Assembly: GCA_022729995.1 (NCBI GenBank)
Contig: DZBS01000006.1
Span: 10,232-53,904, forward strand
Source: Draconibacterium orientale
GTDB lineage: Bacteria > Bacteroidota > Bacteroidia > Bacteroidales > JAADGE01
DNA length: 43,673 bases
Direction: 5' to 3'
Under the pieces are notes generated by a model. That model searched no databases, was not told the origin of the DNA, and worked only from the letters and a program-made list of their open reading frames with translations. This document shows positions 2,779 through 39,836 of the stretch, piece after piece (the first letter of the stretch is position 1; each line of letters starts with the position of its first letter). The position numbers were made by a program, and so were the translations under genes.

Positions 2779-3915
2779 TTAAACAACTGTTAATGAAACA
2801 AATGTGTAAGAAAAACGTGCACTTTCCGGAACCATTATCAATATTTTTTGTCCTTTCTTTAATTTATTTCCGTTAAAAAGTTCTTCGAGCATTAGAAAAG
2901 CCGAGGCTGAACCAACATTTCCGACAAAAGGCAGGTTTACAAACCATTTTTCTTCCGGAATTTCAAGATTCATATTTTTTAAGCCATCAAATATTTTATC
3001 TTTAAAAAACATCGATGAAAGGTGAGGCAAAAACCAATCTACTTTACTAACATCGTAATTTCTTTTTTTAATTATTTCATAAAGAAATTTAACTCCAAAA
3101 TTTATAATATTATCGCCAAGCATTCTGGTATCTTGGCTAAGTGTCATTATAGATTTTTCGATAAGTTCTTTTTCGGTGAAATCGCGCCAAGGAATTATTT
3201 CACCGTTTTCGGTAATTTCCATTCCAGCATACATACATGTATCTATTTCGCCTGCAAAAGATGTAATATCAATCCAATCTATTTCCAGTGAAATTGATTT
3301 TTCGTTGGGTTTATTTTGAACTAAAGCAGCTGCAGCTCCGTCGGAAAGCATCCATCTCAAAAACTCTTTTTGGAATGCAAGCATTGGTTTTTTCTCCAAT
3401 GTTTCTATTAATTTTGTTTCTTCTTCAAAGTTTTTTGCTTGAAGCCATGTCGATATTTTTTCGCTTCCTGTTGTAATTGCGTTTGTAGAATTCCCTGAAA
3501 GTATTGATAAATAAGCATGTTTAAGAGCCAACATTCCCGAATTGCATGAACCGGAAGTTGACATATATTCAAGATTATGTAATTTCAGCAATCCGTGAAC
3601 CATTGATGCGTGCGAAGGCAAAAGTTGGTCGGGAGAAGTTGTTCCGCATGCCAAAAGTTCCAATTCTGAAAGTTTGAAGTTTTCGTTTTCCAATTTCTTT
3701 ATACTTTCGGCTGTAAGTTGTGCATTTGTGTGTGTCGATTTGCCGTTTTTATCAATTGCATAATATCTTTTTTCTATTCTGTTGTTTCTAAGAATAATTG
3801 GTTTTGCTTTTGATTTTGTATCGTTAATATAGCCCAAATATTCTTCCATTTCTGAGTTTTCGATTGCTTTCCCGGGTAAAAATTTTTGGATATTGGTAAT
3901 GTAAACTTTTGCCAT
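2779..3915 (-). CDS. darB: Dialkylresorcinol-forming ketosynthase DarB
   Basis: This 378-residue KAS III-like enzyme matches my memory of DarB from flexirubin loci, including the early LGYINDTKSKAKPIILRNN stretch and the RYYAID segment. DarB joins a beta-ketoacyl thioester with a second acyl thioester to make the ring precursor of dialkylresorcinols. The FabH-type triad is visible as Cys124 (GSCNSG), His298 (LPHLSS) and Asn333 (VGNVGSAS). The gene follows darA in the same direction after a gap of about 100 bases that contains a possible -7 element. It abuts the ApeP-like gene. Family assignment is strong; the acyl substrates cannot be read from sequence. Confidence 0.92.
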   Translation of the reverse strand: MAKVYITNIQKFLPGKAIENSEMEEYLGYINDTKSKAKPIILRNNRIEKRYYAIDKNGKSTHTNAQLTAESIKKLENENFKLSELELLACGTTSPDQLLPSHASMVHGLLKLHNLEYMSTSGSCNSGMLALKHAYLSILSGNSTNAITTGSEKISTWLQAKNFEEETKLIETLEKKPMLAFQKEFLRWMLSDGAAAALVQNKPNEKSISLEIDWIDITSFAGEIDTCMYAGMEITENGEIIPWRDFTEKELIEKSIMTLSQDTRMLGDNIINFGVKFLYEIIKKRNYDVSKVDWFLPHLSSMFFKDKIFDGLKNMNLEIPEEKWFVNLPFVGNVGSASAFLMLEELFNGNKLKKGQKILIMVPESARFSYTFVSLTVV

Positions 3916-3959
3916 TTCTTTAATTGTTCAAATTTTCAAGTCTGTTTTATTTAGTGGTG

Positions 3960-3967
3960 CAAAAATA
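3960..3967 (-). promoter_or_regulatory. Possible -7 element upstream of darB
   Basis: On the minus strand this reads TATTTTTG, a full match to the Bacteroidota -7 consensus, about 45 bases upstream of the darB ATG. No TTTG is present at the expected -33 position, so it may be a weak or regulated internal promoter, or chance in A/T-rich DNA. Confidence 0.35.
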
Positions 3968-4015
3968 TAAAAATGAATGAATTAATTTTTATGTTTTTGA
4001 ATATCATTATTGAAA

Positions 4016-4921
4016 TTATGACGAGTAATATTTTATTTCCGATTTTGCCGATTTATTGAATATTATTTTCTTTATTTTGAAAAACAATGACGCAAAAGGA
4101 GATACTCCAAAAATGACAAAATATAAGTAGTTTTTAAATATATTCAGTCTTCTTTTTCTTTGTTTTGGTGTTAAATTTCCTTCTTTTAAAATTTTTGTGT
4201 ACCAAATATTAAAAATTCTGCCTCCGTTTAATTCGGTTTTCATAATTGCATAATCAATTTCTATTGCTCCGTTTTCAACCAACGATTTTTGCAGATTCAT
4301 CAGATTATTATTTATTAATTTTTCATAAATAATTTTTCCGAATTTACCTGTATTTTCAATATCCGATTTGCTAACTCCGGCTGCAGGCCAAATTCCTTTT
4401 GCTTCTTTTTGTCCGTTTATTAACCAGCGAACAATTGTAATTACGCTCACCAAATTATTGTTTTTATCAGACAAAACAATGTTTCCGACAATTTTTCCTC
4501 CAATTTCATTTATAAGATTTTTAGTTTTTGAATGAGCATTAACCCACATATTTCTAACTCCGTAGACAGTAACAATCGGTTTATCTTTTAATAATTTTCC
4601 GGCTTCTTCGCTTTTCAAAAATGAAGTAATAGGAATCGACGGTGATAAATACCAAACTTGTCCGGCTAAAACAATTAAATCGAAATCATTATTGATATTA
4701 AAATCCGAATTATTTATTTGGCAAGGTTTAAGTCCGACACTTTCGGGGAAAACATCAAAAAATTCGTTTGCAGTCCAAGGGAAAGGATATTCGGGAATTG
4801 CTTTAATTTCTTTGTACGTGATTTCAATTTCGGAAGGAATTTCTTTTTCATTGAAAATTGATTTACAAATGTCCAATATTTGTCCGCTTTGACTGTAATA
4901 TATAACTAATATTTTTTTCAT
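4016..4921 (-). CDS. darA: Dialkylresorcinol aromatase-type protein DarA
   Basis: The 301-residue protein belongs to the family annotated as dialkylresorcinol condensing enzyme DarA. It opens with a flavodoxin-like strand and phosphate loop (KKILVIYYSQSGQI). The flavodoxin-like part continues through LIVLAGQVWYLSPSIPI near residue 83-99 and TVYGVRNMWVNAH near 117-129. In the Dar pathway DarB makes a cyclohexanedione and DarA aromatises it to the resorcinol; a flavin-type fold suits that oxidation. The C-terminal third ends in a hydrophobic helix around 267-285, so membrane contact is likely. It sits between the ABC permease gene (47-base gap) and darB. Confidence 0.88.
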   Translation of the reverse strand: MKKILVIYYSQSGQILDICKSIFNEKEIPSEIEITYKEIKAIPEYPFPWTANEFFDVFPESVGLKPCQINNSDFNINNDFDLIVLAGQVWYLSPSIPITSFLKSEEAGKLLKDKPIVTVYGVRNMWVNAHSKTKNLINEIGGKIVGNIVLSDKNNNLVSVITIVRWLINGQKEAKGIWPAAGVSKSDIENTGKFGKIIYEKLINNNLMNLQKSLVENGAIEIDYAIMKTELNGGRIFNIWYTKILKEGNLTPKQRKRRLNIFKNYLYFVIFGVSPFASLFFKIKKIIFNKSAKSEIKYYSS

Positions 4922-4968
4922 TTTGATTGTTTTTCAAATACTTATATTGATATTTTTATTATTTTCTA

Positions 4969-6243
4969 TTACAATCTTTTAAATCGTTCATAATAAATTG
5001 TTAAAAAATTTAATGTTAAAGAAAATAATATTAATGAAGCAATTTGAGGTAAAACTTCAATAATTCCGTAATCTTTCAAAAAAATTTTATAAAAACCTTC
5101 TAAACCCCAATTCATCGGCGAAATTATACTTATATCCTGCATAATTTTCGGCATTGTGTAAACAGGAAACCAAACTCCGGCAATTGCTGCCATAATTATA
5201 ACTCCGACAGAACCAAAAACACCGGCTTGTTCGTGCGTTGTTGCAACAGTTCCAACAGCTGCACCAAAACCTGTAGCTGCAAATCCTGATGCTAAAGCAA
5301 CCATAATTAAAGCAAAAATATGATTTCCGAGTTTTAATTGTGGCAAACCGAAAAGCGGTAAAATATAAATCCCGATTAGCAACATCAAAATAAATTGAAT
5401 CATTGTAACTCCCATGTAAATAATTGTTTTACTCGTGATAACGTGAAAATACGAGCCGGGCATAGTTCTAAGACGAAAAAAGCTGCCGTCGTTTCTTTCG
5501 TTAATCATGTTTCCCGAAATCGGTATAACAATGAAAAACATAGCAAAAAGTGTCCAAGCCGGAACATTATGTTGAGTTGAATTAGGAATAATTCTGCTTT
5601 CTTTTTCGTAAGCAAAAATTTCTTTAAAACTTATTGATTCTGTGGCTTTTATTTCAGTTTTATTTTCTGTTCCGGTCATTTCTGCAATTTGCTCGGCCAA
5701 AAGTTTGAAAAGTATTTGTGTTTCGGTTTTTCCGGTGTATTCTCTAATCGACGATAATATTGCCTGTTTGAAAGTTTGCTTTAATGTGGGTTCTGTAAGT
5801 ATTTGAATTTCTATAGTATTAGAATTTTCTAATTTGTGAATATCCGGTGTTTCGCCGCTAAAAAACTTGGCAATCATCGGTTTTACTTTATTTCTGACAG
5901 AATCTGTTGCGCCGGCCGGAATTATTACCGCAATTTTATATTTTCCGTCCGACACTTTTTTTAGTGCATAATTGTAATTATAGTTTTTTATATCTTTTTT
6001 TTCGGTAATTTGAAATATTTCGGCACTTTGAAGTCCTTCTTTTATTGTTTTTCCAAGAATATCATTATCGTTATCAATAAAAAGAATTTCTATTTGCGAT
6101 TCTTTTAACGATTGAAGCGTTGTGTCTTGTGCAAGCGAAATAACTATTATTAGTGCAACAGGCATTATAAAAAGTATTGCCAAACCGGGAATATCTCTAA
6201 TCAGAATTAAATATTCTTTTATAATAGAAGCTTTTAGTTTCAT
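4969..6243 (-). CDS. ABC-2 type transporter permease
   Basis: The 424-residue protein has the ABC-2 permease layout. One N-terminal membrane helix (about 17-36) is followed by a large extracytoplasmic domain (about 40-230). A C-terminal block of five helices (about 232-250, 272-300, 310-340, 350-372 and 398-415) contains the conserved PMNWGLEGFYKIFL loop. This resembles YhhJ/DrrB-like exporters of lipids and antibiotics. The partner ATPase gene lies just upstream at 6346-7065. In this operon it probably exports or flips the alkylresorcinol or finished pigment. That role is inferred from context only. Confidence 0.9.
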   Translation of the reverse strand: MKLKASIIKEYLILIRDIPGLAILFIMPVALIIVISLAQDTTLQSLKESQIEILFIDNDNDILGKTIKEGLQSAEIFQITEKKDIKNYNYNYALKKVSDGKYKIAVIIPAGATDSVRNKVKPMIAKFFSGETPDIHKLENSNTIEIQILTEPTLKQTFKQAILSSIREYTGKTETQILFKLLAEQIAEMTGTENKTEIKATESISFKEIFAYEKESRIIPNSTQHNVPAWTLFAMFFIVIPISGNMINERNDGSFFRLRTMPGSYFHVITSKTIIYMGVTMIQFILMLLIGIYILPLFGLPQLKLGNHIFALIMVALASGFAATGFGAAVGTVATTHEQAGVFGSVGVIIMAAIAGVWFPVYTMPKIMQDISIISPMNWGLEGFYKIFLKDYGIIEVLPQIASLILFSLTLNFLTIYYERFKRL

Positions 6244-6345
6244 CTGTTTATTTCTAATTGTTTTTAAAGGTCAGATAGGAACATCCTGAATAATCATTCG
6301 TTTGTGTGTTGAGAAATATACATTGATGTTTCACTTTCTTATTTT

Positions 6346-7065
6346 TTATTTCGTTAGTTTAAAAAACACTTGTTCAAGGTTTTTGCAATTGTTTTGTTCT
6401 ATTAGTTTATACGGATTTCCTTGTGCAATAATTTTACCCGATTCGAGAATTGCTATTTCGGAGCAAAATTTTTCTGCTTCGTCTAAATAATGCGATGTAT
6501 AAATTATTGTTGTTCCGGTTTTATTAATTTTTTTGAGAAGCTCCATTATTTCAAATCTCGAATGTGCGTCGATTCCCACAGCAGGCTCGTCTAAGAGAAG
6601 TATTTCCGGATTATGCAGAATTCCTGCAATAATATTAATTCTGCGTTTTAGTCCGCCGGAATAGTGTTTAACTTTCTTATTTGCATGTTCTGTTAAACCA
6701 AATTCTTCGATTCTTTGTTCGATAATAGGTTTTAGCTTTTTTTCTTCAATTCCGTACATTCTTCCGAAAAACATAAGATTTTCGATTCCGGTAAGGGTAG
6801 GATAAAGCGCAATATCTTGAGGAACAACACCTGTTATTGCTTTAAATTTATTCATGTTTTTGCTTTGCAATTGATTATCGAAAAATATTTTTCCCGATGT
6901 TGGAGGAAAAAGTCCGCAAAGCATTGAAAATATTGTTGTTTTTCCGGCACCGTTTGGTCCTAAAAGCCCAAAAACTTCGGCTTTATTTATTTGTAGACTG
7001 ATATTGTTAACAGCAATATTTTCGGATTCGTGATATTTTTTTGTTAAATTTTCTATTCTAATCAT
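6346..7065 (-). CDS. ABC transporter ATP-binding protein
   Basis: This 239-residue ATPase drives the permease encoded next to it. Walker A is GPNGAGKTT (residues 36-44) and the Q-loop lies near VVPQDIALYP. The signature is YSGGLKRR, with Tyr in place of the usual Leu at its first position, and Walker B is ILLLDEPAVGID. The H-loop is TSHYLDEAEK. These place it in the drug/lipid (CcmA/DrrA-like) subfamily. It starts 10 bases after the BtrH-like gene and is followed by a gap of about 100 bases before the permease gene. Confidence 0.95.
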   Translation of the reverse strand: MIRIENLTKKYHESENIAVNNISLQINKAEVFGLLGPNGAGKTTIFSMLCGLFPPTSGKIFFDNQLQSKNMNKFKAITGVVPQDIALYPTLTGIENLMFFGRMYGIEEKKLKPIIEQRIEEFGLTEHANKKVKHYSGGLKRRINIIAGILHNPEILLLDEPAVGIDAHSRFEIMELLKKINKTGTTIIYTSHYLDEAEKFCSEIAILESGKIIAQGNPYKLIEQNNCKNLEQVFFKLTK

Positions 7066-7075
7066 TTCAAAAAAT

Positions 7076-8101
7076 CTAAAGTTCTTTTACTACTGAATTT
7101 AACCGAGTAAAAATATTCTTTTCCATTTCAAATATTTCCAATAATATTTCTGATGCTTTTAAATAAGGTTCCTCCATTTCGCTTCGTTTTTTTGAAACTC
7201 TTCCTGCCAGAATTGCAAATTCTCTCCATTTGTCGCCGGTTTCGGTCATTAATTTAGAAAGTTCGGCAAGTTTTGAGTTGTTAAAAATAATTGAAATTTC
7301 TTGTAAAAATGCAGCGTAAAGAAATCTGAATCCTGCTCCGCCGGTTCCAATTTCTTCTTGCATACGAACAGCTTGAGCCATATATAAAGCAGCTTTTTTA
7401 GTTCCCAAATTTTTTTCCCAATTCTTAACTTTTTTAGAAAAATATTTAATTCCTTTTACTCCAAAAAGCGGAATAGGAATTGTGAGCATATCGCTGCAAG
7501 TGTGTTTTATTCCTTTAATTACGGCTTTTTTTACATCATGTTCGGCAGTTTTTTCAGAAATATAATACATTTTTCCGCCCGGAGAATAAGTTCCTTTTGC
7601 GTAACGAACTTTTTTTAATCGTTCATAATTAAGCTTTTCAGGATTTATCATTACGGGGTCGCTAATCAGATATTCATTGTTTTCTTTTCCGTATACAACA
7701 ATATTGTGTGCATTAAAATGAAAACGATAGGCAGGCGGAAAATAATCGAGATGAAAAACACCCACAACCATTCCAACCGGAATTCCTTTTTCAAGAAGAT
7801 TGTCGAGTTCCGACATACCTTTGTCTTTATTCTTAAATTTTTTAGCAGTTACTTTGAATCCAAGTCTTTTTGCTGTTCTTTTGAAAATTGTTCCGGGAAG
7901 CGGTCTGAATGAAATTACCGGAATTCCGTTGAGTTTTATAAAAGGTAAATATGAAAAAAATATTCCTGAGCCAATTCCAAAAATCATTGCTTCTGAAAGT
8001 TTTATTCCTTGAAATTTTATAAGATTTGATGTTACTCCGTTTTCGCAATGAGCAGCCATGCTGTGCTCAAAATTTATCTTATTGTTAATTGTATCAGCCA
8101 T
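7076..8101 (-). CDS. BtrH-like acyl transferase
   Basis: The 341-residue protein has a BtrH N-terminal domain: a peptidase-C39-like fold with a candidate nucleophile Cys19 in AAHCENGVTS, followed by the GIGSGIFFSYLPF motif. A second His is visible in YRFHFNAHNIVVYG near residue 129-142, with YLISDP after it. The C-terminal part (about 170-341) is helical, like the DUF4872 region of this family. BtrH of butirosin biosynthesis transfers an acyl group from an acyl-carrier protein to an amine. Homologues recur in flexirubin loci, so this protein may join an ACP-bound acyl chain to the resorcinol or another acceptor; that is inference. It starts four bases after the preceding gene and lies in the same operon. 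Confidence 0.85.
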   Translation of the reverse strand: MADTINNKINFEHSMAAHCENGVTSNLIKFQGIKLSEAMIFGIGSGIFFSYLPFIKLNGIPVISFRPLPGTIFKRTAKRLGFKVTAKKFKNKDKGMSELDNLLEKGIPVGMVVGVFHLDYFPPAYRFHFNAHNIVVYGKENNEYLISDPVMINPEKLNYERLKKVRYAKGTYSPGGKMYYISEKTAEHDVKKAVIKGIKHTCSDMLTIPIPLFGVKGIKYFSKKVKNWEKNLGTKKAALYMAQAVRMQEEIGTGGAGFRFLYAAFLQEISIIFNNSKLAELSKLMTETGDKWREFAILAGRVSKKRSEMEEPYLKASEILLEIFEMEKNIFTRLNSVVKEL

Positions 8102-8105
8102 TTAA

Positions 8106-8561
8106 TTAATTCTTTGTATGTTTTTCGATACTGCTTTCTACAGTTTTAGGATTTATAAGATCTTCTATGCTGATTTCAAATATTTCGGCATAAATTTGTA
8201 ATTTACCGTTACTTAATTTTTTAAAAAATTTTGGTTTGCAATGATTTTTAACTCTAAAAACAAAAGTTTCGGCATATTGCGAAAGTAGTTTATAATCCAT
8301 AATATTTTTTATCATGTAGAAATAAATTGGACTTTTTTCGCCCGAAATTACTTTTTGAAGAGCAATTTTTGCATTTTCGTCTACTTCGTTCCACGCTTCT
8401 CGTAATATATCATTTTTTATATCCCAACCTTTGCTGAAAATTTGAGTGTAGTTTCCGTTTTCGTCTGTAGCATATTGGATTTCTTCAGTTCCTTTAAGCA
8501 TATTTTCGTTATCTTGAGGCACTTCTTGTTTCTTCATTCTGCAAATTTTTATGGAAGGCAA
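8106..8561 (-). CDS. Small HTH-like protein heading the dar operon
   Basis: The 151-residue hydrophilic protein is the first gene of the minus-strand dar operon. No membrane segment or signal peptide is visible. The C-terminal half (about 90-140: LSQYAETFVFRVKNHCKPKF, then KLSNGKLQIYAEIFEIS) resembles the end of an XRE/Cro-type DNA-binding domain, with the usual 'LxxYAxxFxISxxxL' last helix. I recall similar proteins at the head of flexirubin loci, but no function is known to me. It may be a transcriptional regulator or a small adaptor. An earlier in-frame start is possible; a shorter start at Met7 (MKKQEVP) would also fit. Confidence 0.7.
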   Translation of the reverse strand: MPSIKICRMKKQEVPQDNENMLKGTEEIQYATDENGNYTQIFSKGWDIKNDILREAWNEVDENAKIALQKVISGEKSPIYFYMIKNIMDYKLLSQYAETFVFRVKNHCKPKFFKKLSNGKLQIYAEIFEISIEDLINPKTVESSIEKHTKN

Positions 8562-27154: not shown

Positions 27155-28696
27155 ATGATTAAAATAGGAGTTAAAAGGCTTGAAAAAGCTGATTTCGAGA
27201 AAATAGTCTTTCAAAAAGAAAAAATCGAAATAGATGAAATTGCAAGAGAAAAAGTTAAAACGAATTTTGAATTTTTAGAACAATTCTCAAAAAACAAAAT
27301 AATATACGGAATTAATACCGGTTTCGGGCCTATGGCTCAATATCGTGTAGACGATAATCAACAAATTGAATTACAATATAATTTAATTAGAAGTCATTCT
27401 TCGGGTTCAGGAAAATTGCTTTCGAAAAAATGCACTAAAGCTGCAATGCTTGCTCGTTTGAATACTCTTTTACAAGCATATTCCGGCGTTAATAATTCCG
27501 TTACCGATTTATTGGCTCAGTTTATTAACAATGATATTTATCCGAAAATATTTCGTCACGGCGGAGTGGGAGCAAGCGGCGATTTAGTTCAGCTTTCGCA
27601 TTTAGCTCTTGCACTTATAGGCGAAGGAGAAGTAAATTATAAAGGTGAGTTTAGAAATACTGCCGTCGTTTTAAAAGAACTAAATTTGAAACCTATTGAT
27701 GTGAAAATTCGTGAAGGTTTAGGACTTATAAACGGAACTTCTGTTATGACAGGAATTAGCATTCTTAATACTTTATACACACACAAACTCTTAAGTTGGT
27801 CAATTATTTCTTCGGTTTTAATTAACGAAATTGTAAAATCTTACGACGACCATTATTCAAAAGAATTAAACTCTGTTAAACATCATAAAGGACAACAAGT
27901 TATTGCTGAATCAATGCAAAATATTTTGTATTCTTCTAAATTGATAAAAAAACGACACGATGTTCTTTACAACGGAAAAGAAAATAATACAAAAGTTTTT
28001 GAAGATAAAGTTCAAGAATATTATTCTTTAAGATGTGTTCCGCAAATTCTCGGACCAATTTTAGATACTTTAATTTATTCCGAAAATATTTTGGAAGACG
28101 AAGTAAATTCTGTTAACGATAATCCGATTATCGATCATAAAAATAATAATGTTTTTCACGGAGGAAATTTTCACGGCGATTATGTTTCTTTGGAAGCCGA
28201 TAAACTTAAAATTGCCGTTACAAAACTTTCAATGCTTGCCGAAAGACAAATTAATTTTTTAATGAACGACAAATTAAATAAAATACTTCCGCCGTTTGTA
28301 AATCTTGGAACTTTAGGACTAAATCTGGGAATGCAAGGCGTTCAATTCACTGCTGTTTCAACAGTTGCCGAAAATCAAACACTTTCAAACCCGATGTATG
28401 TTCACAGTATTCCGAATAATAACGACAATCAGGATATTGTAAGCATGGGAACAAATGCAGCTCTTTTAACACAAAAAGTGATTTTTAATTCTTTTGAAGT
28501 TTTAGCTATTGAATTGCTTTCATTGGTTCAAGCTGTTGATTATTTGGGATATCAAGATAATTTATCAGATTTATCTAAAAAAATATATTCCGAAATTAGA
28601 GCTATAGTTCCGCGTTTTGAAAAAGATTCATCTAAATATAATGAATTGGAAAATATTAAAAATTACTTAATGGATTCAAACATTAATCTTATTTAA
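27155..28696 (+). CDS. tal: Aromatic amino-acid ammonia-lyase (probable tyrosine)
   Basis: The 513-residue enzyme belongs to the HAL/PAL/TAL family. The MIO cofactor triad Ala140-Ser141-Gly142 is in GGVGASGDLVQLSHLAL and the catalytic Tyr51 in IIYGINTGFGPMAQYR. His81 (IRSHSSG) is at the position that is His in both HAL and TAL, so it does not separate the two. Overall it closely resembles the well-known Flavobacterium johnsoniae TAL (for example the SIPNNNDNQDIVSMGTN segment). Placement at the head of a pigment operon favours tyrosine to 4-coumarate. That would be the aryl starter; no histidine-degradation genes are nearby. RBS-like AGGAAAGAG precedes the ATG. Confidence 0.92.
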   Translation: MIKIGVKRLEKADFEKIVFQKEKIEIDEIAREKVKTNFEFLEQFSKNKIIYGINTGFGPMAQYRVDDNQQIELQYNLIRSHSSGSGKLLSKKCTKAAMLARLNTLLQAYSGVNNSVTDLLAQFINNDIYPKIFRHGGVGASGDLVQLSHLALALIGEGEVNYKGEFRNTAVVLKELNLKPIDVKIREGLGLINGTSVMTGISILNTLYTHKLLSWSIISSVLINEIVKSYDDHYSKELNSVKHHKGQQVIAESMQNILYSSKLIKKRHDVLYNGKENNTKVFEDKVQEYYSLRCVPQILGPILDTLIYSENILEDEVNSVNDNPIIDHKNNNVFHGGNFHGDYVSLEADKLKIAVTKLSMLAERQINFLMNDKLNKILPPFVNLGTLGLNLGMQGVQFTAVSTVAENQTLSNPMYVHSIPNNNDNQDIVSMGTNAALLTQKVIFNSFEVLAIELLSLVQAVDYLGYQDNLSDLSKKIYSEIRAIVPRFEKDSSKYNELENIKNYLMDSNINLI

Positions 28697-28712: not shown

Positions 28713-29438
28713 ATGAAAAACGCCATTGTTACAGGTGCATCACGAGGTATTGGAAAAGCCGTTGCAATTCAACTTGCAAAGGAAAATTTTCATGTCATTA
28801 TAAATTATGTTTCAAACGAAATTGAAGCACAAAAAACTCTCGATGAAATTATTGGTTTCGACGGAAGTGCCGAACTTTTGAAATTTGATGTGTCCGATAA
28901 AACCCAAACCGAAAAAGCAATTGAAAATTGGACCAAAAATAATCCGGATAAATATATCAGCGTTTTAGTTAACAATGCAGGAATCCGAAAAGACGGACTT
29001 ATTTTATGGATGTCGGACGAAGATTGGTTTGATGTTATTAATACAAATCTTAACAGTTTTTTCTATTTAACAAGAATTATTGTTAAAGAAATGCTTGTAA
29101 ATAAATTCGGCAGAATAATTAATATTGTTTCGCTTTCGGGATTAAAAGGAATGCCCGGACAAACCAATTATTCGGCTGCAAAAGCCGGAATTATCGGAGC
29201 AACAAAATCGCTTGCTCAAGAAACAGCAAGAAAAGGAGTTACCGTAAATGCAGTTGCTCCCGGATTTATTAAAACCGATATGACAGCCGAACTCGACGAA
29301 AAAGAATTAAAAAAAATTATTCCGGCTCAACGATTCGGAAAACCCGAAGAAGTTGCACATTTAGTTTCATTTTTAGCCTCAGAAAATTCGGCATATATTA
29401 CAGGAGAAACTATTTCTATTAACGGAGGTATTTATTAA
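28713..29438 (+). CDS. 3-oxoacyl-ACP reductase (FabG-like, ApeQ-type)
   Basis: This 241-residue short-chain dehydrogenase has the NADPH loop TGASRGIG (7-14), the VNNAGI motif (87-91) and catalytic residues Ser140, Tyr153 and Lys157 (NYSAAKAG). The end, GETISINGGIY, is typical of FabG. It would reduce beta-ketoacyl-ACP intermediates during polyene extension. It starts 17 bases after the lyase stop, and the next gene is a ketosynthase. A primary-metabolism role is less likely given the operon. Confidence 0.93.
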   Translation: MKNAIVTGASRGIGKAVAIQLAKENFHVIINYVSNEIEAQKTLDEIIGFDGSAELLKFDVSDKTQTEKAIENWTKNNPDKYISVLVNNAGIRKDGLILWMSDEDWFDVINTNLNSFFYLTRIIVKEMLVNKFGRIINIVSLSGLKGMPGQTNYSAAKAGIIGATKSLAQETARKGVTVNAVAPGFIKTDMTAELDEKELKKIIPAQRFGKPEEVAHLVSFLASENSAYITGETISINGGIY

Positions 29439-29460: not shown

Positions 29461-30675
29461 ATGAATAGAGTTGTTATTACCGGAATGGGAATATATTCGG
29501 TTTTAGGAACAAACTTAAATACAGTAGCCGATTCGCTTTTTAAAGGCAAATCCGGAATTGGTATTGATGAAAACCGTGCAAATTTTGGGTTTAGATCAAA
29601 ACTTACCGGAATTATTGAGAAACCGGATATTAAAAATCTTCTTTCGCGAAGAATGCGAATTGGAATGCCCGAACAAGCCGAATATGCTTATTTGGCTACA
29701 ATTGAAGCTTTTAAAAATGCTAAAGTTGACCAAGATTATTTAGATAAAAATATTGTTGGGATTTTATACGGAAACGACAGTTCGGCTTCGGCCGTTATTG
29801 AAGGCTGGGAAATTATGAAAGAGAAAAAAGATACTTCTCTAATTGGCTCAGGCTCAATTTTTAAGTCGATGAATTCTACAGTAACAATGAATTTATCGGT
29901 AATTTTTAAACTGAAAGGAATAAATTTTACAATTAGCGGAGCTTGCGCAAGCGGTTCTCATGCTATAGGAATTGCATATTTGCTCATTCAACAAGGTTTG
30001 CAAGATATGATTGTTGTTGGCGGAGCTCAAGAAATTAATGCAGAATCAATGGGAAGTTTCGACGGACTTTCAGCTTTTTCTGTAAGAGAAAACGAACCTC
30101 AAAAAGCATCAAGACCATTCGACCGAGACCGTGACGGATTAATTCCCGGCGGAGGCGCTGCAACATTAATTCTTGAAAGTTATGAAAATGCTGTAAAACG
30201 CGGAGCAAATATTCTTGCAGAAGTTGTTGGTTACGGATTTTCTTCAAACGGCGAGCACATTTCAAACCCAAATGTTGAAGGACCGACTCGTTCATTAGAA
30301 TTAGCGCTTAAAAATGCAAATTTAAAATCTTCGGATATTGATTATGTCAATGCTCATGCAACTTCTACTCTTGTTGGAGATGATAATGAAGCTCAATCAC
30401 TTTTTAATGTTTTTGGAAGTAAAACTCCCGTGAGTTCTACAAAATCTATGACCGGACACGAAATGTGGATGGGCGGCGCAAGCGAAATTATTTATTCAAT
30501 TTTAATGGCTCAAAATAATTTTGTAGCACCAAATATCAATTTTGAAAATCCCGATGAATTTTCTTCAAAAATTAATATTATTCCAATAACCAAAGAGATG
30601 AAAATGAAAACTTTTCTTTCAAATTCCTTTGGTTTTGGCGGAACAAATTCATCGTTAATTGTGAAAATGCTTTAA
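29461..30675 (+). CDS. Beta-ketoacyl-ACP synthase (KAS I/II type), first
   Basis: The 404-residue enzyme has an intact Cys-His-His triad: Cys162 (GACASGS), His299 (NAHATST) and His333 (TGHEMWMGG). The usual RPFDRDRDGLIPGGG segment is at 218-232 and the C-terminal SFGFGGTNSS near 389-398. It resembles FabF-like synthases of aryl-polyene loci (ApeR-like or ApeO-like). It is followed 17 bases later by an ACP gene. Which condensation it performs is not clear from sequence; starter extension from an aryl-ACP is possible. Confidence 0.92.
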   Translation: MNRVVITGMGIYSVLGTNLNTVADSLFKGKSGIGIDENRANFGFRSKLTGIIEKPDIKNLLSRRMRIGMPEQAEYAYLATIEAFKNAKVDQDYLDKNIVGILYGNDSSASAVIEGWEIMKEKKDTSLIGSGSIFKSMNSTVTMNLSVIFKLKGINFTISGACASGSHAIGIAYLLIQQGLQDMIVVGGAQEINAESMGSFDGLSAFSVRENEPQKASRPFDRDRDGLIPGGGAATLILESYENAVKRGANILAEVVGYGFSSNGEHISNPNVEGPTRSLELALKNANLKSSDIDYVNAHATSTLVGDDNEAQSLFNVFGSKTPVSSTKSMTGHEMWMGGASEIIYSILMAQNNFVAPNINFENPDEFSSKINIIPITKEMKMKTFLSNSFGFGGTNSSLIVKML

Positions 30676-30691
30676 AAAAATTAAATATATA

Positions 30692-30940
30692 ATGGAAAAA
30701 CAAGTAATAATTGAAAAAATAAATAAATTCTTAATTGAAGAAATTGAAATTGAAGAATCGGATATTTCTCCCGAAGCTTCTCTTTCAAAAGATTTAGGAA
30801 TAGACAGCCTCGATTTTGTCGATATTGTGGTGATTGTTGAAAAAACTTTCGGCTTCAAAATTAAAGGTGAAGATATGAAAGACATTAAAACTCTTGAAAT
30901 GTTTTATGATTATGTTGAGCAAAAAGTAAATCAAAATTAG
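30692..30940 (+). CDS. Acyl carrier protein, first
   Basis: This 82-residue acidic ACP carries the phosphopantetheine serine Ser39 in LGIDSLDFVDIVV. Length and helix pattern are typical. It is one of two ACPs in the operon (the other at 35194-35448), like ApeE/ApeF. It lies between a ketosynthase and an acyltransferase gene and may carry the aryl-polyene chain or the acyl chain for dialkylresorcinol formation (a DarC-type role). The two roles cannot be separated by sequence. Confidence 0.95.
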   Translation: MEKQVIIEKINKFLIEEIEIEESDISPEASLSKDLGIDSLDFVDIVVIVEKTFGFKIKGEDMKDIKTLEMFYDYVEQKVNQN

Positions 30941-30948
30941 AGTTTACA

Positions 30949-31842
30949 ATGCAACAAAACTGGGAAGGAAGAACAAGAGGCGGACTGTCGGGATATAAAA
31001 TTTTTATATTTATTCTTAAAAAAGCCGGTATTAAATCGGCATATTTACTTTTAAGATTTATAGCTCTTTGGTTTGCAATTTTTTCTTTTAAAGGTGCTAA
31101 AGCTCAATACGTTTTATTCAGAAAAAGATTAAATTATTCTGCTTTAAAATCAATATTTTCAGTTTACAAAAATCATTATATTTTCGGACAAGTGTTATTA
31201 GATAAAATCGCTATTCTTTCCGGAATGCGAGATAAATTTACTTACGAACATACAAATGAAGATGTAATTAAGAATATGCTAATTAACAAAACCGGCGGTA
31301 TTCTTATAAATGCTCACATTGGAAGTTGGGAAATGGCAGGTCAACTTTTGGAAATGCACGGCGATAAAATTTATGTTGTGATGCTTGATGCCGAACATGA
31401 AAAAATTAAAAATTATGTTTCGGAAGTTACGGGCGGAAATAAAATTGAAATTATTCCCATTAAAAATGACGGTTCGCACATTATAAAAATTGATGAGGTT
31501 TTGAAAGATAAAGGAATTATTGCAATGCACGGCGACAGATTTATGGACAGTGCAAATTTTGAAGAATTTGATTTCTTGGGGAAAAAAGCAAAATTTCCTA
31601 CAGGTCCGTTTCATTTAGCTGCAAAATATTCTGTTCCGTTCACTTTTGCAACTGCTTTCAAAGAAAAAAAACTGCACTATCATTTTTTTGCAGCCAAAGC
31701 TCAGTATGTAAAATATCCCGGGAATATTGCCGAAAGAAAAATTGAAATTAAAAAAAGTATGCAAAATTATGTTTCTCAACTCGAAGAAACTATAAAAAAA
31801 TATCCGATACAATGGTTTAATTATTACAACTTTTGGAATTAA
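30949..31842 (+). CDS. LpxL/HtrB-like acyltransferase
   Basis: The 297-residue membrane-associated protein matches the lauroyl/myristoyl acyltransferase (lysophospholipid acyltransferase) family. The catalytic motif is NAHIGSWEMAGQ with His123 and Glu128 (HxxxxE). The later segment MHGDRFMDSANFEEFDFLGK and the FPTGPFHLAAKYSVPFTF block are also typical. A hydrophobic helix lies near 30-48. In aryl-polyene and flexirubin loci such enzymes are proposed to attach the polyene acyl group to its lipid or resorcinol acceptor. Starts nine bases after the ACP gene, so it may use that ACP-bound chain. Confidence 0.9.
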   Translation: MQQNWEGRTRGGLSGYKIFIFILKKAGIKSAYLLLRFIALWFAIFSFKGAKAQYVLFRKRLNYSALKSIFSVYKNHYIFGQVLLDKIAILSGMRDKFTYEHTNEDVIKNMLINKTGGILINAHIGSWEMAGQLLEMHGDKIYVVMLDAEHEKIKNYVSEVTGGNKIEIIPIKNDGSHIIKIDEVLKDKGIIAMHGDRFMDSANFEEFDFLGKKAKFPTGPFHLAAKYSVPFTFATAFKEKKLHYHFFAAKAQYVKYPGNIAERKIEIKKSMQNYVSQLEETIKKYPIQWFNYYNFWN

Positions 31843-31862
31843 TAATATTGAAAACAAAAACT

Positions 31863-32933
31863 ATGTCGAGAACTTACGGAAAAGATGAAAAATCTGCTTT
31901 ACAAGCAAAAACCGATGCTCAAAAAATTGCATTTGCGCCAATTATGTTTCAAGCAGCAAAAGCTTTGAGAGATTTAGGAATTTTAAATTTTATAAAACAA
32001 AAAAGAAAAGGAGTTACCGTTTCCGAAATTTCTTCAAATTTAAATATTTCGGAATATGGTATTACAGTGCTTTTGGAAGCCGGAATTAGTTTAGAAATGG
32101 TGAGAGTTGAAAATGACAAATGGTTTATTACAAAAACCGGTTTTTTCGTTCTTTCAGATGAGCTTACACGCGCCAACATGGATTTTACGCACGACGTAAA
32201 CTATAAAGCATTTTTTCATTTGCAAGAAGCTATTACCGAAGGAAAACCAACAGGATTAAATAAAGAATTCGGCAGTTGGAAAACTGTTTACGAAGCTTTG
32301 GCTGAAATGCCTGAGAAATTTCGTAAAAGTTGGTTCGATTTTGATCATTATTATTCAAGCGATTCTTTTCCGCATGTGATGCCCGTTATTTTTAAAAATA
32401 ATCCGAAGAAAATTATGGATGTTGGCGGAAATACAGGAAAATTTGCCATTAAATGCGCCGAATATTCGCCCGAAATTAATGTTACAATTCTTGATTTACC
32501 CGGACAACTTGCCGACGCACAAAAAAATATAGACCAAAATAATTTTACCGACAGAATAAAAGGTCATCCGATTAATCTTTTGGATTTTTCGCAACAATAT
32601 CCTAAAAATCACGATATTATTTGGATGAGTCAATTTTTGGATTGCTTTTCGGAAAGCGAAATTTTGAATTTACTTACAAATGCAAAAAATGCAATGGACA
32701 GTAATTCAGAACTTTTCATTATGGAAACTTTCTGGGATTTACAACGTTTTGAAGCTTCAACATATAGTTTGCATGCTACATCGCTTTATTTCACTTGTGT
32801 TGCAAACGGAAATAGCCGAATGTATCATTCCGACGATATGCGCCAATTAGTCGAAAAAGCAGGATTAAAAGTTGTTGAAGTATTTGAAAATATTGGTGTT
32901 AGTCACACAATTTTTAGATGTAAAAAAGCTTAA
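31863..32933 (+). CDS. SAM-dependent O-methyltransferase-like protein
   Basis: From the ATG at 31863 the product has 356 residues. An in-frame ATG at 31833 would overlap the previous gene by ten bases and is less likely. The N-terminal half (about 10-105) is a winged-helix dimerisation domain (IAFAPIMFQAAKALRDLG, then GVTVSEISSNLNISEYG). The catalytic half has the SAM loop IMDVGGNTGKFAI near 185-197, then INVTILDLPGQLADAQ and HDIIWMSQFLDCFSE. This is the layout of plant-type and acetylserotonin-like O-methyltransferases. Methylation of the aryl ring hydroxyl or ring carbon of the pigment is likely but not proven. Confidence 0.9.
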   Translation: MSRTYGKDEKSALQAKTDAQKIAFAPIMFQAAKALRDLGILNFIKQKRKGVTVSEISSNLNISEYGITVLLEAGISLEMVRVENDKWFITKTGFFVLSDELTRANMDFTHDVNYKAFFHLQEAITEGKPTGLNKEFGSWKTVYEALAEMPEKFRKSWFDFDHYYSSDSFPHVMPVIFKNNPKKIMDVGGNTGKFAIKCAEYSPEINVTILDLPGQLADAQKNIDQNNFTDRIKGHPINLLDFSQQYPKNHDIIWMSQFLDCFSESEILNLLTNAKNAMDSNSELFIMETFWDLQRFEASTYSLHATSLYFTCVANGNSRMYHSDDMRQLVEKAGLKVVEVFENIGVSHTIFRCKKA

Positions 32934-33397: not shown

Positions 33398-35191
33398 ATG
33401 GTTTATATTTCATCACATAATATAATTTCTTCTTTAGGATTTTCAACTAATCAAAACATTGAAAATTTCAGAAATTCTGTTTCCGGAGTTTTATTCCATA
33501 ATGACAAAAAATATTCAAAAGAAGATGTATTTTTTTCGCTTATAAATCACGACGAATTAAATAAAAAATTTGAAGAAATATCTGATAATAAAGATTATAC
33601 ACTTTACGAAAAGCTTTTAATATTATCGGTTTCAGATGCTTTAAGAAATTCAAAAATTAATCCTTCGCCAAAAGATACTTTAATTTTAATTTCAACAACA
33701 AAAGGAAATATCGACCTTTTAAATAATGAAAATCCTGAAAATCCGAAATTAAAATTATACGACACAGCAAAAGTTTTAAAAGATTTTTTTAAAACAGAAA
33801 ATTTACCGCAAGTTATTTCAAATGCTTGTATTTCAGGAACTTTAGCTTTGGCTGTTGCTAAAAGATTTATAGATTCAGGTTTATATAAAAATATTATTGT
33901 TACCGGAGCCGATATAATTTCGGAGTTCACTCTCTCGGGATTTTTGTCTTTCAAAGCAATAGGAACTTCTGTTTGCAAACCTTTTGACAAAAACCGCGAC
34001 GGAATAAATTTGGGTGAAGGAGCAGGCACAATAATTCTTACTTCGGAAAAACAATTTGCTGCCGAGCCTCATATTTTCCTATCCGGAGCTTCGTGCACAA
34101 ACGATGCAAATCACATTTCCGGACCGTCAAGAACAGGCAACGAATTGGCTTTGGCAATTTCAAATTCATTGATTGAAGCAAATATTGACTCTTCAAAAGT
34201 TCAATATATTTCTGCACACGGAACGGCAACTTCTTATAACGACGAAATGGAAGCAAAAGCTTTTTCAACAGCCGGAATTTTAGATGCAAATATTACAAGT
34301 GTAAAAGCTTATATTGGTCATACACTTGGTGCAGCCGGAATTATTGAAACTGTTTTGGGAATTTCTGCTATCGAAAATCAAGAAATTTATCCTACAATAG
34401 GTTTCGAAGAAATTGGAGTTCCTGCCAAAATAAATGTGAATAATATATTTAGAAAAACGAAAATTGAAAATGTAGTTAAAACAGCTTCCGGATTTGGCGG
34501 TTGCAATGCTGCTTTGGTTTTGTCGTCAAATGTGCCTGAACATAAAAAACAAATCGAAAATATAAATCTTGATATAACGGAAAGCGTTGTAATTAAAGAA
34601 GATTTTTATATCAATTCAAACAAAAAAACAGTTATTAATTCTGATGCTTTTTCTTTCGGTAAATTCACAAAAGCCATTTATACACAGCAAAATATGAATT
34701 ATCCAAAATTTTATAAAATGGATAATTTAAGCAAATTGGCATTTATTGCTTCTGAATTATTATTGAAAAATAAAAATATTATAGAAAAATATAAACCCGA
34801 AGAAATTTCTATTATTATTTCAAACAGAAGTTCTTCGCTGAATACCGATTTTAAATATCAAGAGTCAATTTCCGATAGAGAAAATTATTTTCCGAGTCCG
34901 TCGGTTTTTGTATATACGCTCGCAAACGTTATGATTGGCGAAGTTTGTATAAGGCACAATATTAAAGGTGAAAATACTGTTTTTATTCATGAAAATTTCG
35001 ATGTTGATTTTCTAAAAAATTATATAGAAATTTTATTCAAAACAAATAAAACAAAACTTGCAATTACAGGAAGAATTGAATATGACTTTCCTTCAGAAAA
35101 ACATGAAGCGGTTTTATATTTAATTGAAAATAAAGAAAATGCAACATTAAATTTTAATAAAATAAATATAAACAAAATATATAATACTTAA
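33398..35191 (+). CDS. Ketosynthase fused to a degenerate KS-like domain
   Basis: The 597-residue protein has an N-terminal KAS I/II domain (1-380) with the full triad: Cys144 (NACISGT), His274 (SAHGTATS) and His308 (IGHTLGAAG). The C-terminal 210 residues look like a second, shortened KS N-half. It includes a KMDNLSKLAFIASELLLKN segment, IIISNRSSSLNTD and SPSVFVYTLANVMIGEVC, but no catalytic Cys where one would be expected. In flavobacterial flexirubin loci I recall this second unit as a separate protein. Here the two are one chain, so a built-in KS/partner pair is possible. It is followed by an ACP gene two bases later. Confidence 0.88.
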   Translation: MVYISSHNIISSLGFSTNQNIENFRNSVSGVLFHNDKKYSKEDVFFSLINHDELNKKFEEISDNKDYTLYEKLLILSVSDALRNSKINPSPKDTLILISTTKGNIDLLNNENPENPKLKLYDTAKVLKDFFKTENLPQVISNACISGTLALAVAKRFIDSGLYKNIIVTGADIISEFTLSGFLSFKAIGTSVCKPFDKNRDGINLGEGAGTIILTSEKQFAAEPHIFLSGASCTNDANHISGPSRTGNELALAISNSLIEANIDSSKVQYISAHGTATSYNDEMEAKAFSTAGILDANITSVKAYIGHTLGAAGIIETVLGISAIENQEIYPTIGFEEIGVPAKINVNNIFRKTKIENVVKTASGFGGCNAALVLSSNVPEHKKQIENINLDITESVVIKEDFYINSNKKTVINSDAFSFGKFTKAIYTQQNMNYPKFYKMDNLSKLAFIASELLLKNKNIIEKYKPEEISIIISNRSSSLNTDFKYQESISDRENYFPSPSVFVYTLANVMIGEVCIRHNIKGENTVFIHENFDVDFLKNYIEILFKTNKTKLAITGRIEYDFPSEKHEAVLYLIENKENATLNFNKININKIYNT

Positions 35192-35193
35192 AA

Positions 35194-35448
35194 ATGGAAA
35201 ATTTAATTTTAAAATTGAAACAACAAATTATTGAAGCTCTAAATTTGGAAGATATGGAGCCTGAAGAAATTGACACAAACGCTCCTTTATTTGGCGACGG
35301 ACTTGGTCTCGATTCTATTGATGCTTTGGAACTTATTGTTTTGTTGGAAAAAAATTACGGAATAAAAATTGAAAATCCGAAAGACGGACAAAAAATATTT
35401 GCTTCGGTTCAAACAATGGCTCAATTTATTGAAGATTATAAAAACTAA
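35194..35448 (+). CDS. Acyl carrier protein, second
   Basis: This 84-residue ACP has Ser41 in the GLDSIDALELIVL phosphopantetheine site. It begins two bases after the fused ketosynthase and precedes another ketosynthase by 16 bases, so it is the likely carrier for the KS/CLF chain extension (ApeE/F-like). Confidence 0.95.
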   Translation: MENLILKLKQQIIEALNLEDMEPEEIDTNAPLFGDGLGLDSIDALELIVLLEKNYGIKIENPKDGQKIFASVQTMAQFIEDYKN

Positions 35449-35464
35449 TTTCCGAGAAATAAAT

Positions 35465-36658
35465 ATGCGAGTTTTTATAACCGGAATTGGTGCAGTTTCC
35501 TCAATCGGAATAAATGTTTCAGAGAATTTTGAATCTTTGAAAGCAAAGAAATCCGGCGTGGAAAAAATGCGTTTTGTCGAAACTATTCATTCCGATGAAA
35601 TTCCGGCTGCCGAAATAAAACTTTCCGACAAGCAAATATTTGAAATTTTAGCATTGGAAAAATCCGGTTTTTATACGCGAACCGCCTTAATTGCAATGCT
35701 TGCAGCGAAAGAAGCTTTTGAAAATTCGGGAATTAAAATTTCTTCTGATTTTAAAACAGGACTTATTTCGAGCACAACAGTTGCAGGAATGGGAAAAAGC
35801 GAAATTTTTTATGATAAATATATAAATACCGATTTTTCAAACGGATTTATTAAAACTCATGAAGCTTCCGACAGCACCGAAAAAATTGCCGATTTTCTTA
35901 ACATAAAAGATTATATTTCAACAATAAGCACGGCTTGTTCGTCGTCGGCAAACGCAATAATGCAAGGAGCAAGAATGATAAAACACGGAATTCTCGACAG
36001 AGCAATTGTCGGAGGTGCAGATTCATTGTCGAAATTCACAATTAACGGTTTCAACACATTAATGATTTTAGACAGAAATCAATGCACGCCATTTGATGCC
36101 GACAGAAAAGGCTTGAATTTGGGAGAAGGAGCTGCTTTTCTTGTTCTTGAATCGGAAGAAAGTGTTTTGAAAAACGGAAGTAAAATTTTAGCAGAAATTA
36201 AAGGATATTCTAATACAAACGACGCATATCATCAAACTGCTTCATCGCCCGACGGTTACGGACCATATTTGGCTATGAAATTTGCAATGGAAATGGCAAA
36301 TCTAAATCCACAAGATATTGATTATGTGAATGTTCACGGAACCGGAACTCCAAATAACGATTTGTCTGAAGGACTTGCATTAAAAAGATTTTTTGGCGAA
36401 AAAATTCCAAAATTCAGTTCTACAAAAGCATATACAGGTCATACTTTGGCTGCTTCGGGAGCTTTGGAAGCGGTATATTCAGTTTTGGCAATTCAGAATA
36501 ATGTTATTTTTCCGAATTTATTTTTTAAAAATGCAATTCCGGAATTAAATTATTCTCCCGAAACAAATTTTATAGAAAATTTTCAGGTAAATAATGTGTT
36601 GTCAAATTCTTTCGGTTTTGGAGGAAACGATTCTTCATTAATTTTTTCTAAAGTATAA
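35465..36658 (+). CDS. Beta-ketoacyl-ACP synthase, ApeO-type
   Basis: From the ATG at 35465 the enzyme has 397 residues. The upstream in-frame ATG at 35369 lies inside the ACP gene and adds unrelated sequence. The triad is intact: Cys158 (STACSSSANA), His291 (NVHGTGTP) and His326 (YTGHTLAASG). The end SFGFGGNDSSL is typical. It lies directly before a KS-like gene lacking the active Cys, the pattern of a KSalpha/KSbeta (ApeO:ApeC) heterodimer in type II polyketide and aryl-polyene synthesis. It likely extends the aryl starter with malonyl units. Confidence 0.93.
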   Translation: MRVFITGIGAVSSIGINVSENFESLKAKKSGVEKMRFVETIHSDEIPAAEIKLSDKQIFEILALEKSGFYTRTALIAMLAAKEAFENSGIKISSDFKTGLISSTTVAGMGKSEIFYDKYINTDFSNGFIKTHEASDSTEKIADFLNIKDYISTISTACSSSANAIMQGARMIKHGILDRAIVGGADSLSKFTINGFNTLMILDRNQCTPFDADRKGLNLGEGAAFLVLESEESVLKNGSKILAEIKGYSNTNDAYHQTASSPDGYGPYLAMKFAMEMANLNPQDIDYVNVHGTGTPNNDLSEGLALKRFFGEKIPKFSSTKAYTGHTLAASGALEAVYSVLAIQNNVIFPNLFFKNAIPELNYSPETNFIENFQVNNVLSNSFGFGGNDSSLIFSKV

Positions 36659-36661
36659 GTT

Positions 36662-37723
36662 ATGAATGTTTTTATAAACGGAGCATCGTGCATAAGTCCA
36701 CAAAATTCAATAAATTACGATGAGTTTTGTAATGAAATTGTTGTGCATGAAACTTTATTTTTAGAATCGATAAATCCTGAATATAAAGAATTTATTAAAC
36801 CGATAGACTCTCGCCGAATGAGCAAAACCGTGAAGAACGGAATTATTGCTTCAAATTATGCTTTGCGAGAAGCCGAAACTGAAATGCCCGATGCAATAAT
36901 TGTCGGAACAGGATTGGGAGTTGTTAGCGACACAGAAAAGTTTCTTGAAAAAATGATTGAAAATAATGAGCAATTTCTTACGCCGACTTCATTTATTCAA
37001 TCTACTCACAACACGGTTGCCGGACAAATTGCTTTAGGTTTGAAATGTCATAACTATAATTTTACTTATGTTCACGGCGGTTTTTCATTTGAAAGTGCAG
37101 TAATTGATGCAGTTATGCACATTAATGAAGGGAAGAAAAATATTTTGGTTGGTGCAGCCGATGAAATGACGCAGAATTATTATAAGATTATTAAGAAAAC
37201 CGGAAATTGGAAAACTGAGATTATTAAAAATACCGATTTATTCAAATATCAAACAACCGGAGCACTTTGTGGCGAAGGTGTCAGTTTTTTTGTTCTTTCT
37301 TCACAAAAAAATCAAAATACATTTTGCATTTTATCCGGAACTCAAACAATTTATAAACCTAAAAATTCAGATGAAATTCAAATTAGAATTAATGAATTTT
37401 TATCTCACCGGAATTTACAAGTTTCTGATATTGATATGGTTATTCTTGGTGTTTCGGGTGATTACGAGCAAGATAAAATCTATTATGAAGTGCAAAATTC
37501 TTTGTTTATGAGTAAATATGTTACTTATTATAAACATTTGAGCGGTGATTTTCATACTTCAACAAGTTTTGCAATGTGGTTTGCCGCCAATGCAATTAAG
37601 CATAATAAAACACCCGATTTTGTTTCGCTTTTAAATTTGAAGCCTTCAAAAATTAAAAACGTTCTTATTTACAATCACTATTTTGAGAATAATCATTCAC
37701 TTTTTTTGTTAACAGAAGCATAA
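36662..37723 (+). CDS. Chain-length-factor-like KS (ApeC-type)
   Basis: The 353-residue protein is a degenerate ketosynthase. The N-half strands are present (IIVGTGLGVVSD at 79-90, FIQSTHNTVAGQIALGL at 111-127). The nucleophile position reads YVHGGFSFESA, with Phe141 aligned to the catalytic Cys. Neither of the two usual active-site His motifs is clear. This fits a KSbeta/chain-length factor that pairs with the synthase encoded three bases upstream and sets polyene length. Gene spacing supports coupled production. It is not expected to condense acyl units itself. Confidence 0.9.
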   Translation: MNVFINGASCISPQNSINYDEFCNEIVVHETLFLESINPEYKEFIKPIDSRRMSKTVKNGIIASNYALREAETEMPDAIIVGTGLGVVSDTEKFLEKMIENNEQFLTPTSFIQSTHNTVAGQIALGLKCHNYNFTYVHGGFSFESAVIDAVMHINEGKKNILVGAADEMTQNYYKIIKKTGNWKTEIIKNTDLFKYQTTGALCGEGVSFFVLSSQKNQNTFCILSGTQTIYKPKNSDEIQIRINEFLSHRNLQVSDIDMVILGVSGDYEQDKIYYEVQNSLFMSKYVTYYKHLSGDFHTSTSFAMWFAANAIKHNKTPDFVSLLNLKPSKIKNVLIYNHYFENNHSLFLLTEA

Positions 37724-38586: not shown

Positions 38587-39222
38587 ATGAAAAAAATATT
38601 AATATATACTTTCTTATTTTTAGTTTTTTATAATGCCAAATCACAACCTTCGGGTTTTACGGCTGTGAAAGATATAAATTCGGTATCCGAAAAAATTAAA
38701 AAAAGTTCGTTGGAAACAAAAACTCTCGACAGCGATTTTAAACAATATAAGCATTTGAGTATCTTAACAAAAGATATTGAAAGTGTTGGTCATTTTAGTT
38801 TTAAAGCCGAAAATAAAGTTCGCTGGCAATACACTGTTCCGTATAACTATTTGATTGTGATGAGCAACGGAAAAATGTGGATTAAAACCGACAAGAAAGT
38901 TCAAACTTACGACACAAATTCAAATAAAGTTTTCAAAGAAATTAACGATTTGATGGTGGGAATGCTACAAGGAAAAATCCTTAGCGACCCAAATTTTAAA
39001 ACAAAATATTACGAAAATTCAACTACAGTTTTAGCAATTTTAATTCCGCAAAAACCCGATTTAAAAGAGTTTTTAAAAGAAATTCATATATATTTTAGTA
39101 AAACAGATTATAGTGTTTCAAAATTAAAAATGCTTGAAAATTCCGACGATTACACTTTGATAAATTTCTTAAATCAAAAGAAAAATATTGAAATTTCTGA
39201 TTCAAAATTCTCTGTAAAATGA
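38587..39222 (+). CDS. LolA-like outer-membrane carrier protein
   Basis: The 211-residue protein has a signal peptide (MKKILIYTFLFLVFYNAKSQ). The LolA-type fold follows, visible in LDSDFKQYKHLSILTKDIES, VGHFSFKAENKVRWQYTVPY and YLIVMSNGKMWIKTDK. LolA proteins carry lipoproteins or other lipids across the periplasm. Homologues in aryl-polyene loci are thought to help move the pigment to the outer membrane. It overlaps the next gene by four bases (ATGA). Confidence 0.9.
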   Translation: MKKILIYTFLFLVFYNAKSQPSGFTAVKDINSVSEKIKKSSLETKTLDSDFKQYKHLSILTKDIESVGHFSFKAENKVRWQYTVPYNYLIVMSNGKMWIKTDKKVQTYDTNSNKVFKEINDLMVGMLQGKILSDPNFKTKYYENSTTVLAILIPQKPDLKEFLKEIHIYFSKTDYSVSKLKMLENSDDYTLINFLNQKKNIEISDSKFSVK

Positions 39223-39836
39223 AGTATTTCAAATATTTTGCTCTTATAGTTTTTACAATTACTTTATTTTTTTCGTGTTCAACAAAAGGATTGATTAAAT
39301 CTGATTTCGATATAAAAAATATTCAAAATTCGGAATTTCAAAACTCAGATTCTACAATTCTGTTTAAAACGGAAATAAACATTTTTAAAAACGAATTTAG
39401 CGGAATTACTGTTATAAAACCAACCGAAAACCAAAGCCATAGAATTGTTTTTTTGAACGAAGTAGGAATGAAGTTTTTTGATTTGGAAATTTCAAATGAT
39501 ACATTTATTGTTCATCAAATGTTTGAGCCGTTAAACAAAAAATCGTTTATAAATATGCTTGTTAGCGATTTTAAAACAATGCTTTTTTATGAAATTGATA
39601 TTGATAATTCGCAAATTTATCAATCCCAAAAAACTAAATATTTTGTTTTAAAATCAGAAAATAAAAGAACGTTTTATTATTTGAATAATGATTTTTATTA
39701 TCATTCAATTATAAAAAAATCTTTTTTAAGAACTGTTCAAAAGTTTAATTTCATATATAACCCTCAAAATATGTTTAAAGAAATTTATATTGAGCATAAA
39801 AATATTAACTTTGAAATGAATTTTGAAAGAATTTAA
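39219..39836 (+). CDS. Conserved lipoprotein of the pigment locus
   Basis: This 205-residue protein has a lipoprotein signal (MKYFKYFALIVFTITLFFSC, Cys20). The mature part is beta-rich (ITVIKPTENQSHRIVFLNEV, FFDLEISNDTFIVHQMFEPL), compatible with a LolB-like or DUF fold. It is coupled to the LolA-like gene by a four-base overlap, so a LolB-like acceptor at the outer membrane is a sensible guess. I do not recognise the family with certainty. Confidence 0.8.
   Translation: MKYFKYFALIVFTITLFFSCSTKGLIKSDFDIKNIQNSEFQNSDSTILFKTEINIFKNEFSGITVIKPTENQSHRIVFLNEVGMKFFDLEISNDTFIVHQMFEPLNKKSFINMLVSDFKTMLFYEIDIDNSQIYQSQKTKYFVLKSENKRTFYYLNNDFYYHSIIKKSFLRTVQKFNFIYNPQNMFKEIYIEHKNINFEMNFERI

Follow-up and report, generated by a model that had tools for sequence, protein, structure and literature searches.

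The window, meaning the whole analysed stretch of 43,673 nucleotides from Draconibacterium orientale, carries the following genes and features:

2362..8561, minus strand: dialkylresorcinol part of the cluster (NF053539, NF053550 and NF053536, above cut-off)
2779-3915, minus strand: DarB
7076-8101, minus strand: DarH
8106-8561, minus strand: DarG (subfamily-level NCBIfam model)
27155..28696, plus strand: tyrosine ammonia-lyase FlxA (NF053541, E 1.7e-253, above cut-off)
28713..29438, plus strand: ketoreductase FlxB (NF053542, E 4.5e-118, above cut-off)
29461..30675, plus strand: KS1 (FlxC-like), a FabB-type ketosynthase (KS)
30692..30940, plus strand: acyl carrier protein ACP1 (PF00550, E 8.2e-13)
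31833..32933, plus strand: FlxJ-family methyltransferase (NF053543, E 1.3e-155; score 517.7, just under the cut-off of 560)
33398-35191, plus strand: target ORF, 597 aa (ATG at 33398, stop codon at 35189-35191)
33398..34531, plus strand: KS2 (FlxI-like), ketosynthase domain of the target, residues 1-378
33827-33829, plus strand: codon of KS2 Cys144
34217-34219, plus strand: codon of KS2 His274
34319-34321, plus strand: codon of KS2 His308
34532..34567, plus strand: linker between the domains, residues 379-390 (variable in the alignment)
34568..35188, plus strand: half-size chain-length factor (CLF) module (FlxL-like), residues 391-597, ~207 aa, identified by profile, fold and stand-alone homologues
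34847-34849, plus strand: module Asp484
34997-34999, plus strand: module Phe534
35194..35448, plus strand: acyl carrier protein ACP2 (PF00550, E 1.1e-9)
35462..36658, plus strand: KS3 (FlxN-like), full-length FabF-like ketosynthase, partner of a separate CLF
36662..37723, plus strand: CLF3 (FlxO-like), separate chain-length factor (PF13723, E 7.9e-11)
38587..39836, plus strand: LolA2 and LolB2 of flexirubin clusters, two genes (NF053544 and NF053540, above cut-off)

Judged from its sequence, this is a flexirubin (flx/dar) cluster. The markers FlxA, FlxB, LolA2/LolB2, DarB, DarG and DarH are present, all recognized by NCBIfam equivalog models above the cut-off except DarG, which is assigned at the subfamily level. 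A distance of about 20 kb separates the polyene genes from DarB, DarG, DarH and an ABC transporter, all on the opposite strand. Gene order and content make the target the counterpart of FlxI joined to FlxL, KS1 that of FlxC, KS3 that of FlxN and CLF3 that of FlxO. The start codon of KS3 was placed inside a longer ORF; the best PDB match of CLF3 is ApeC (6qsp_B), and it is weak. The separate KS/CLF pair that the initial annotation had placed next to the target is real (35462-36658 and 36662-37723), and the cluster appears to contain one FabB-like ketosynthase, one fused KS/CLF pair and one KS/CLF pair on separate genes. KS1 resembles in this respect ApeR, which has been described as FabB-like (PMC8358021). 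The 2014 Chitinophaga pinensis paper describes FlxC, FlxI, FlxL, FlxN and FlxO simply as putative ketoacyl synthases (PMC3992019). Elsewhere in the window, a 735-aa ORF (18273-20480, minus strand) encodes a urea transporter (PF03253) fused with a peptidase M23 domain (PF01551).

Elongating ketosynthases are characterized by a Cys-His-His catalytic triad in the N- and C-terminal ketosynthase domains. From sequence features, the N-terminal domain of the target can be classed with this KAS I/II type. Both Pfam domains are above the cut-off (PF02801, E 2.4e-22; PF00109, E 3.2e-13), and the triad Cys144/His274/His308, already named in the initial annotation, is present and invariant in 27/27 covering rows of the alignment of fused relatives. 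The best PDB sequence match of KS2 is 7f28_B, ApeO of A. baumannii (AbApeO), with E 6.3e-37. The domain boundary had been set at about residue 390, which is right; residues ~378-390 form a short linker with a pLDDT of ~74, below that of the flanking domains.

The C-terminal region (residues ~391-597) shows the secondary structure of a thiolase-fold N-half, with Phe534 at the position of the catalytic cysteine of ketosynthases. This agrees with its first description as a shortened ketosynthase N-half lacking the catalytic cysteine. Across 79 module homologues, this column contains phenylalanine in 62 and tyrosine in 6 (F/Y 68/79), with cysteine in just 1. Asp484 is kept in 79/79 homologues. The invariant positions, in module numbering, are D106, P123, F126, T129, L130, N132, I140, G146, E147 and G180. 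When modelled alone by AlphaFold, the module reaches a pLDDT of 89.5, and the best four Foldseek matches of this model in the PDB are Iga12 (three entries) and XdApeC, all of them chain-length factors, with moderate TM-scores of 0.53-0.63. The expectation of a thiolase-like C-terminal fold has therefore survived its check. In a PDB search with the profile of the 79 homologues, Iga12 CLF was the best match (E 2.9e-4), followed by FabF-type ketosynthases and the actinorhodin CLF, which were below significance. The HMMER alignment of the profile with Iga12 places an Asp of Iga12 two columns from Asp484. Asp484 might conceivably be a functional equivalent of the Asp113 described for Iga11-Iga12.

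A chain-length factor (KS-beta) is a ketosynthase homologue without the catalytic cysteine. The module agrees with this definition: the cysteine is gone, and structurally it matches CLFs above KS subunits. Its single thiolase fold and its length, within about 200-240 aa, fit an ApeC-type half-size CLF. Aryl-polyene clusters have ApeC as their CLF, which consists of one thiolase fold only (PMC8358021); thus the half-size CLF is already a known design. The earlier wording 'dead KS-like domain' holds for the dead thiolase-type half and fails for the generic ketosynthase, the module being an ApeC-type half-size CLF instead. In Pfam, every model was below threshold for the module alone, PF13723 included, and PF13723 is also absent from the families listed for the 79 homologues. 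For this reason the module is called ApeC-like and is not assigned to PF13723. Pfam and NCBIfam together gave no useful family name for the module alone, just weak matches to FabF-type models and AmcG. By analogy with CLFs in general, the half-CLF may control chain length.

The reading of the module as a degenerate ketosynthase copy was rejected; most of the other Bacteroidota loci fetched encode it as a gene of its own. A related explanation is that the C-terminal half is a functionless remnant of a duplicated ketosynthase, kept by chance. The loss of the cysteine and of the entire second thiolase half, along with the lack of a significant Pfam match for the module alone, would suit such a remnant. 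The invariant residues retained across the homologues, the maintenance of a separate gene in most relatives and the co-evolution of the module with KS2 argue against it and make it very improbable.

The initial annotation had proposed checking whether homologues are split or fused in other genomes, and both states occur. KS2 and the half-CLF are encoded by separate genes in 73 loci and fused in 26 relatives besides the target, in a sample of loci that were fetched by similarity to the fused protein and do not form a census; 29 fused loci were fetched, of which three are views of the target gene itself. The flexirubin setting of the cluster and the existence of the module elsewhere as a separate gene (flxL) go beyond what had been noticed initially. 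The conserved order in flexirubin clusters is KS2-(MT)-halfCLF-ACP-KS3-CLF, which matches flxI-J-L-N-O of Chitinophaga (PMC3992019). In many Bacteroidota, the half-CLF gene (~210 aa) is directly downstream of KS2. The two genes of split loci often abut, with a stop/start overlap, mostly ATGA, in five checked cases; in Chitinophaga and in many Chitinophagaceae they are separated by the FlxJ methyltransferase gene. On two long contigs (L084 and L115) the module is missing beside KS2, and both genomes encode it elsewhere; the remaining KS2 loci without the module stop at or near a contig end.

In relatives the two genes lie side by side or overlap, so that a change of one base would be enough to join them, and the fusion could in principle be an assembly or sequencing error that deleted the intervening stop codon. 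This explanation is refuted by the relatives and deserves practically no credence: the 26 other fusions include isolate genomes, and the spacing between the GFGG and KFYKM motifs is rather constant in fused relatives (mostly 68-76 residues). Within the genus, the same fusion recurs at 59% identity. Many genomes of the family have it too, as do named isolates, for example Bacteroides ihuae and Hoylesella loescheii.

Three changes are needed to place the fused state on the KS2 tree. The hypothesis that all fused genes form one clade was rejected (delta lnL 76.8, p-AU 0.0125); hence, the junction changed more than once. The tree was built without outgroups and is unrooted, so that gains and losses are indistinguishable in it. 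Two loci carry doubtful labels. In L067, labelled as an alphaproteobacterium, KS2 is nearly identical to that of L069 (Bacteroidales), and L056, labelled as Chlorobiota, closely resembles the family of the D. orientale stretch. Each looks like a metagenome bin that was mislabelled or contaminated. In Hoylesella loescheii (L061, 10092-11900), a single ORF encodes both KS3 and CLF3, the CLF being shortened, and both KS/CLF pairs of this cluster are therefore single chains. In four Mucilaginibacter loci (L040, 9117-10937; L041; L108; L112), KS3 instead of KS2 is the fusion partner, with the half-CLF attached at its N-terminus. Partnership with KS2 is thus not the sole arrangement allowed in nature.

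The full-length AlphaFold model, which rests on a 27-row alignment, has a pLDDT of 93.3 and a pTM of 0.95, with both parts confidently packed. The PfaC KS-CLF didomain is the structure that it matches best, at a query TM-score of 0.76; for single KS chains, the query TM-score is at most 0.58 among the matches listed. This ranking of the didomain above single chains is expected if the module occupies the CLF site, and it supports the initial suggestion of a ketosynthase with its own built-in partner. On this model, the two parts are predicted to dock on each other within the chain and to form a KS:CLF pseudo-dimer.

Pairwise distances across 67 clusters, with KS3 picked by gene position, gave a partial distance correlation of 0.52 (0.43-0.59) for KS2 and the half-CLF and of 0.61 for KS3 and CLF3. 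The value was 0.31 for the half-CLF and CLF3, and 0.06, not different from 0, for the half-CLF and KS3. These correlations point to two pairs, KS2/half-CLF and KS3/CLF3. Instead of, or besides, closing the tunnel of KS2, the module might act as a docking or scaffold domain joining the KS2 and KS3 KS/CLF complexes. The change of fusion partner from KS2 in Bacteroidales to KS3 in Mucilaginibacter is in line with this, as is some partial correlation with CLF3. Such a scaffold is nevertheless unlikely considering the lack of partial correlation with KS3 and the match of the whole-chain model to the KS-CLF didomain arrangement. There is likewise only a small chance that the half-CLF is mobile and shared by both ketosynthase complexes as a partner, tying them into a higher-order assembly KS2-halfCLF-KS3-CLF3. 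If true, this assembly would account for the fusions to KS2 (Bacteroidales), to KS3 (some Mucilaginibacter) and of KS3 with CLF (Hoylesella).

Domain identities, homology to the separate gene, the recurrent junction change and paired evolution form the observed basis of the preferred reading. According to it, the protein is very probably a single-chain KS:half-CLF pseudo-heterodimer of the flexirubin (aryl-polyene) pathway, which elongates the chain and is equivalent to FlxI+FlxL or ApeO:ApeC. The N-terminal domain would be the active condensing enzyme, and the half-CLF is predicted to dock on KS2 at the second-subunit site of the ketosynthase dimer. As in ApeO:ApeC and CLFs in general, the docked half-CLF would close the substrate tunnel and help to set the polyene length. 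The starter 4-coumaroyl thioester, formed from tyrosine via FlxA, or the growing polyene may be loaded on Cys144; malonyl-ACP would then be decarboxylated with His274/His308, and the condensation product would be processed by FlxB and a dehydratase. The fusion would mainly fix a 1:1 stoichiometry, and it probably leaves the chemistry unaltered.

Among the closest known systems is FlxI/FlxL of Chitinophaga pinensis (PMC3992019), with the same cluster type, the Chitinophaga gene order and homologous parts; the putative assignment to FlxI/FlxL was made by gene order and homology. Unlike the target, which is one polypeptide, these are two genes with a methyltransferase gene between them. ApeO:ApeC (PDB 6QSP, 7F28) likewise combines a ketosynthase with a half-size single-thiolase-fold CLF in aryl-polyene chemistry, but as separate subunits, and ApeC is far diverged (about 11-14% identity in structural alignment). 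PfaC of PUFA synthases (PDB 6RIW) has KS and CLF in one chain; its CLF, however, is full-size, part of a megasynthase and of a different pathway. The ishigamide KS/CLF Iga11:Iga12 (PDB 6KXD) is polyene-forming, and Iga12 is the best match of the module by profile and fold; in contrast to the target, it is a two-chain system, and Iga12, with 378 aa, comes close to full size. The half-size CLF and the KS-CLF fusion thus each have a precedent singly, in ApeC and PfaC, and their combination is the apparently undescribed part. A literature search that did not extend to subscription journals, and so is weak evidence of absence, found no description of a flexirubin KS-CLF fusion or of a half-size CLF and a ketosynthase in one chain.

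As two chains, the KS/CLF pairs of type II polyketide pathways can be difficult to make and to work with. The natural KS:half-CLF fusion, together with its split relatives, offers a ready single-chain system for testing the role of the CLF and the sufficiency of its half. For flexirubin clusters, it leads to a proposal of partners, in which KS2 would work with the half-CLF and KS3 with CLF3.
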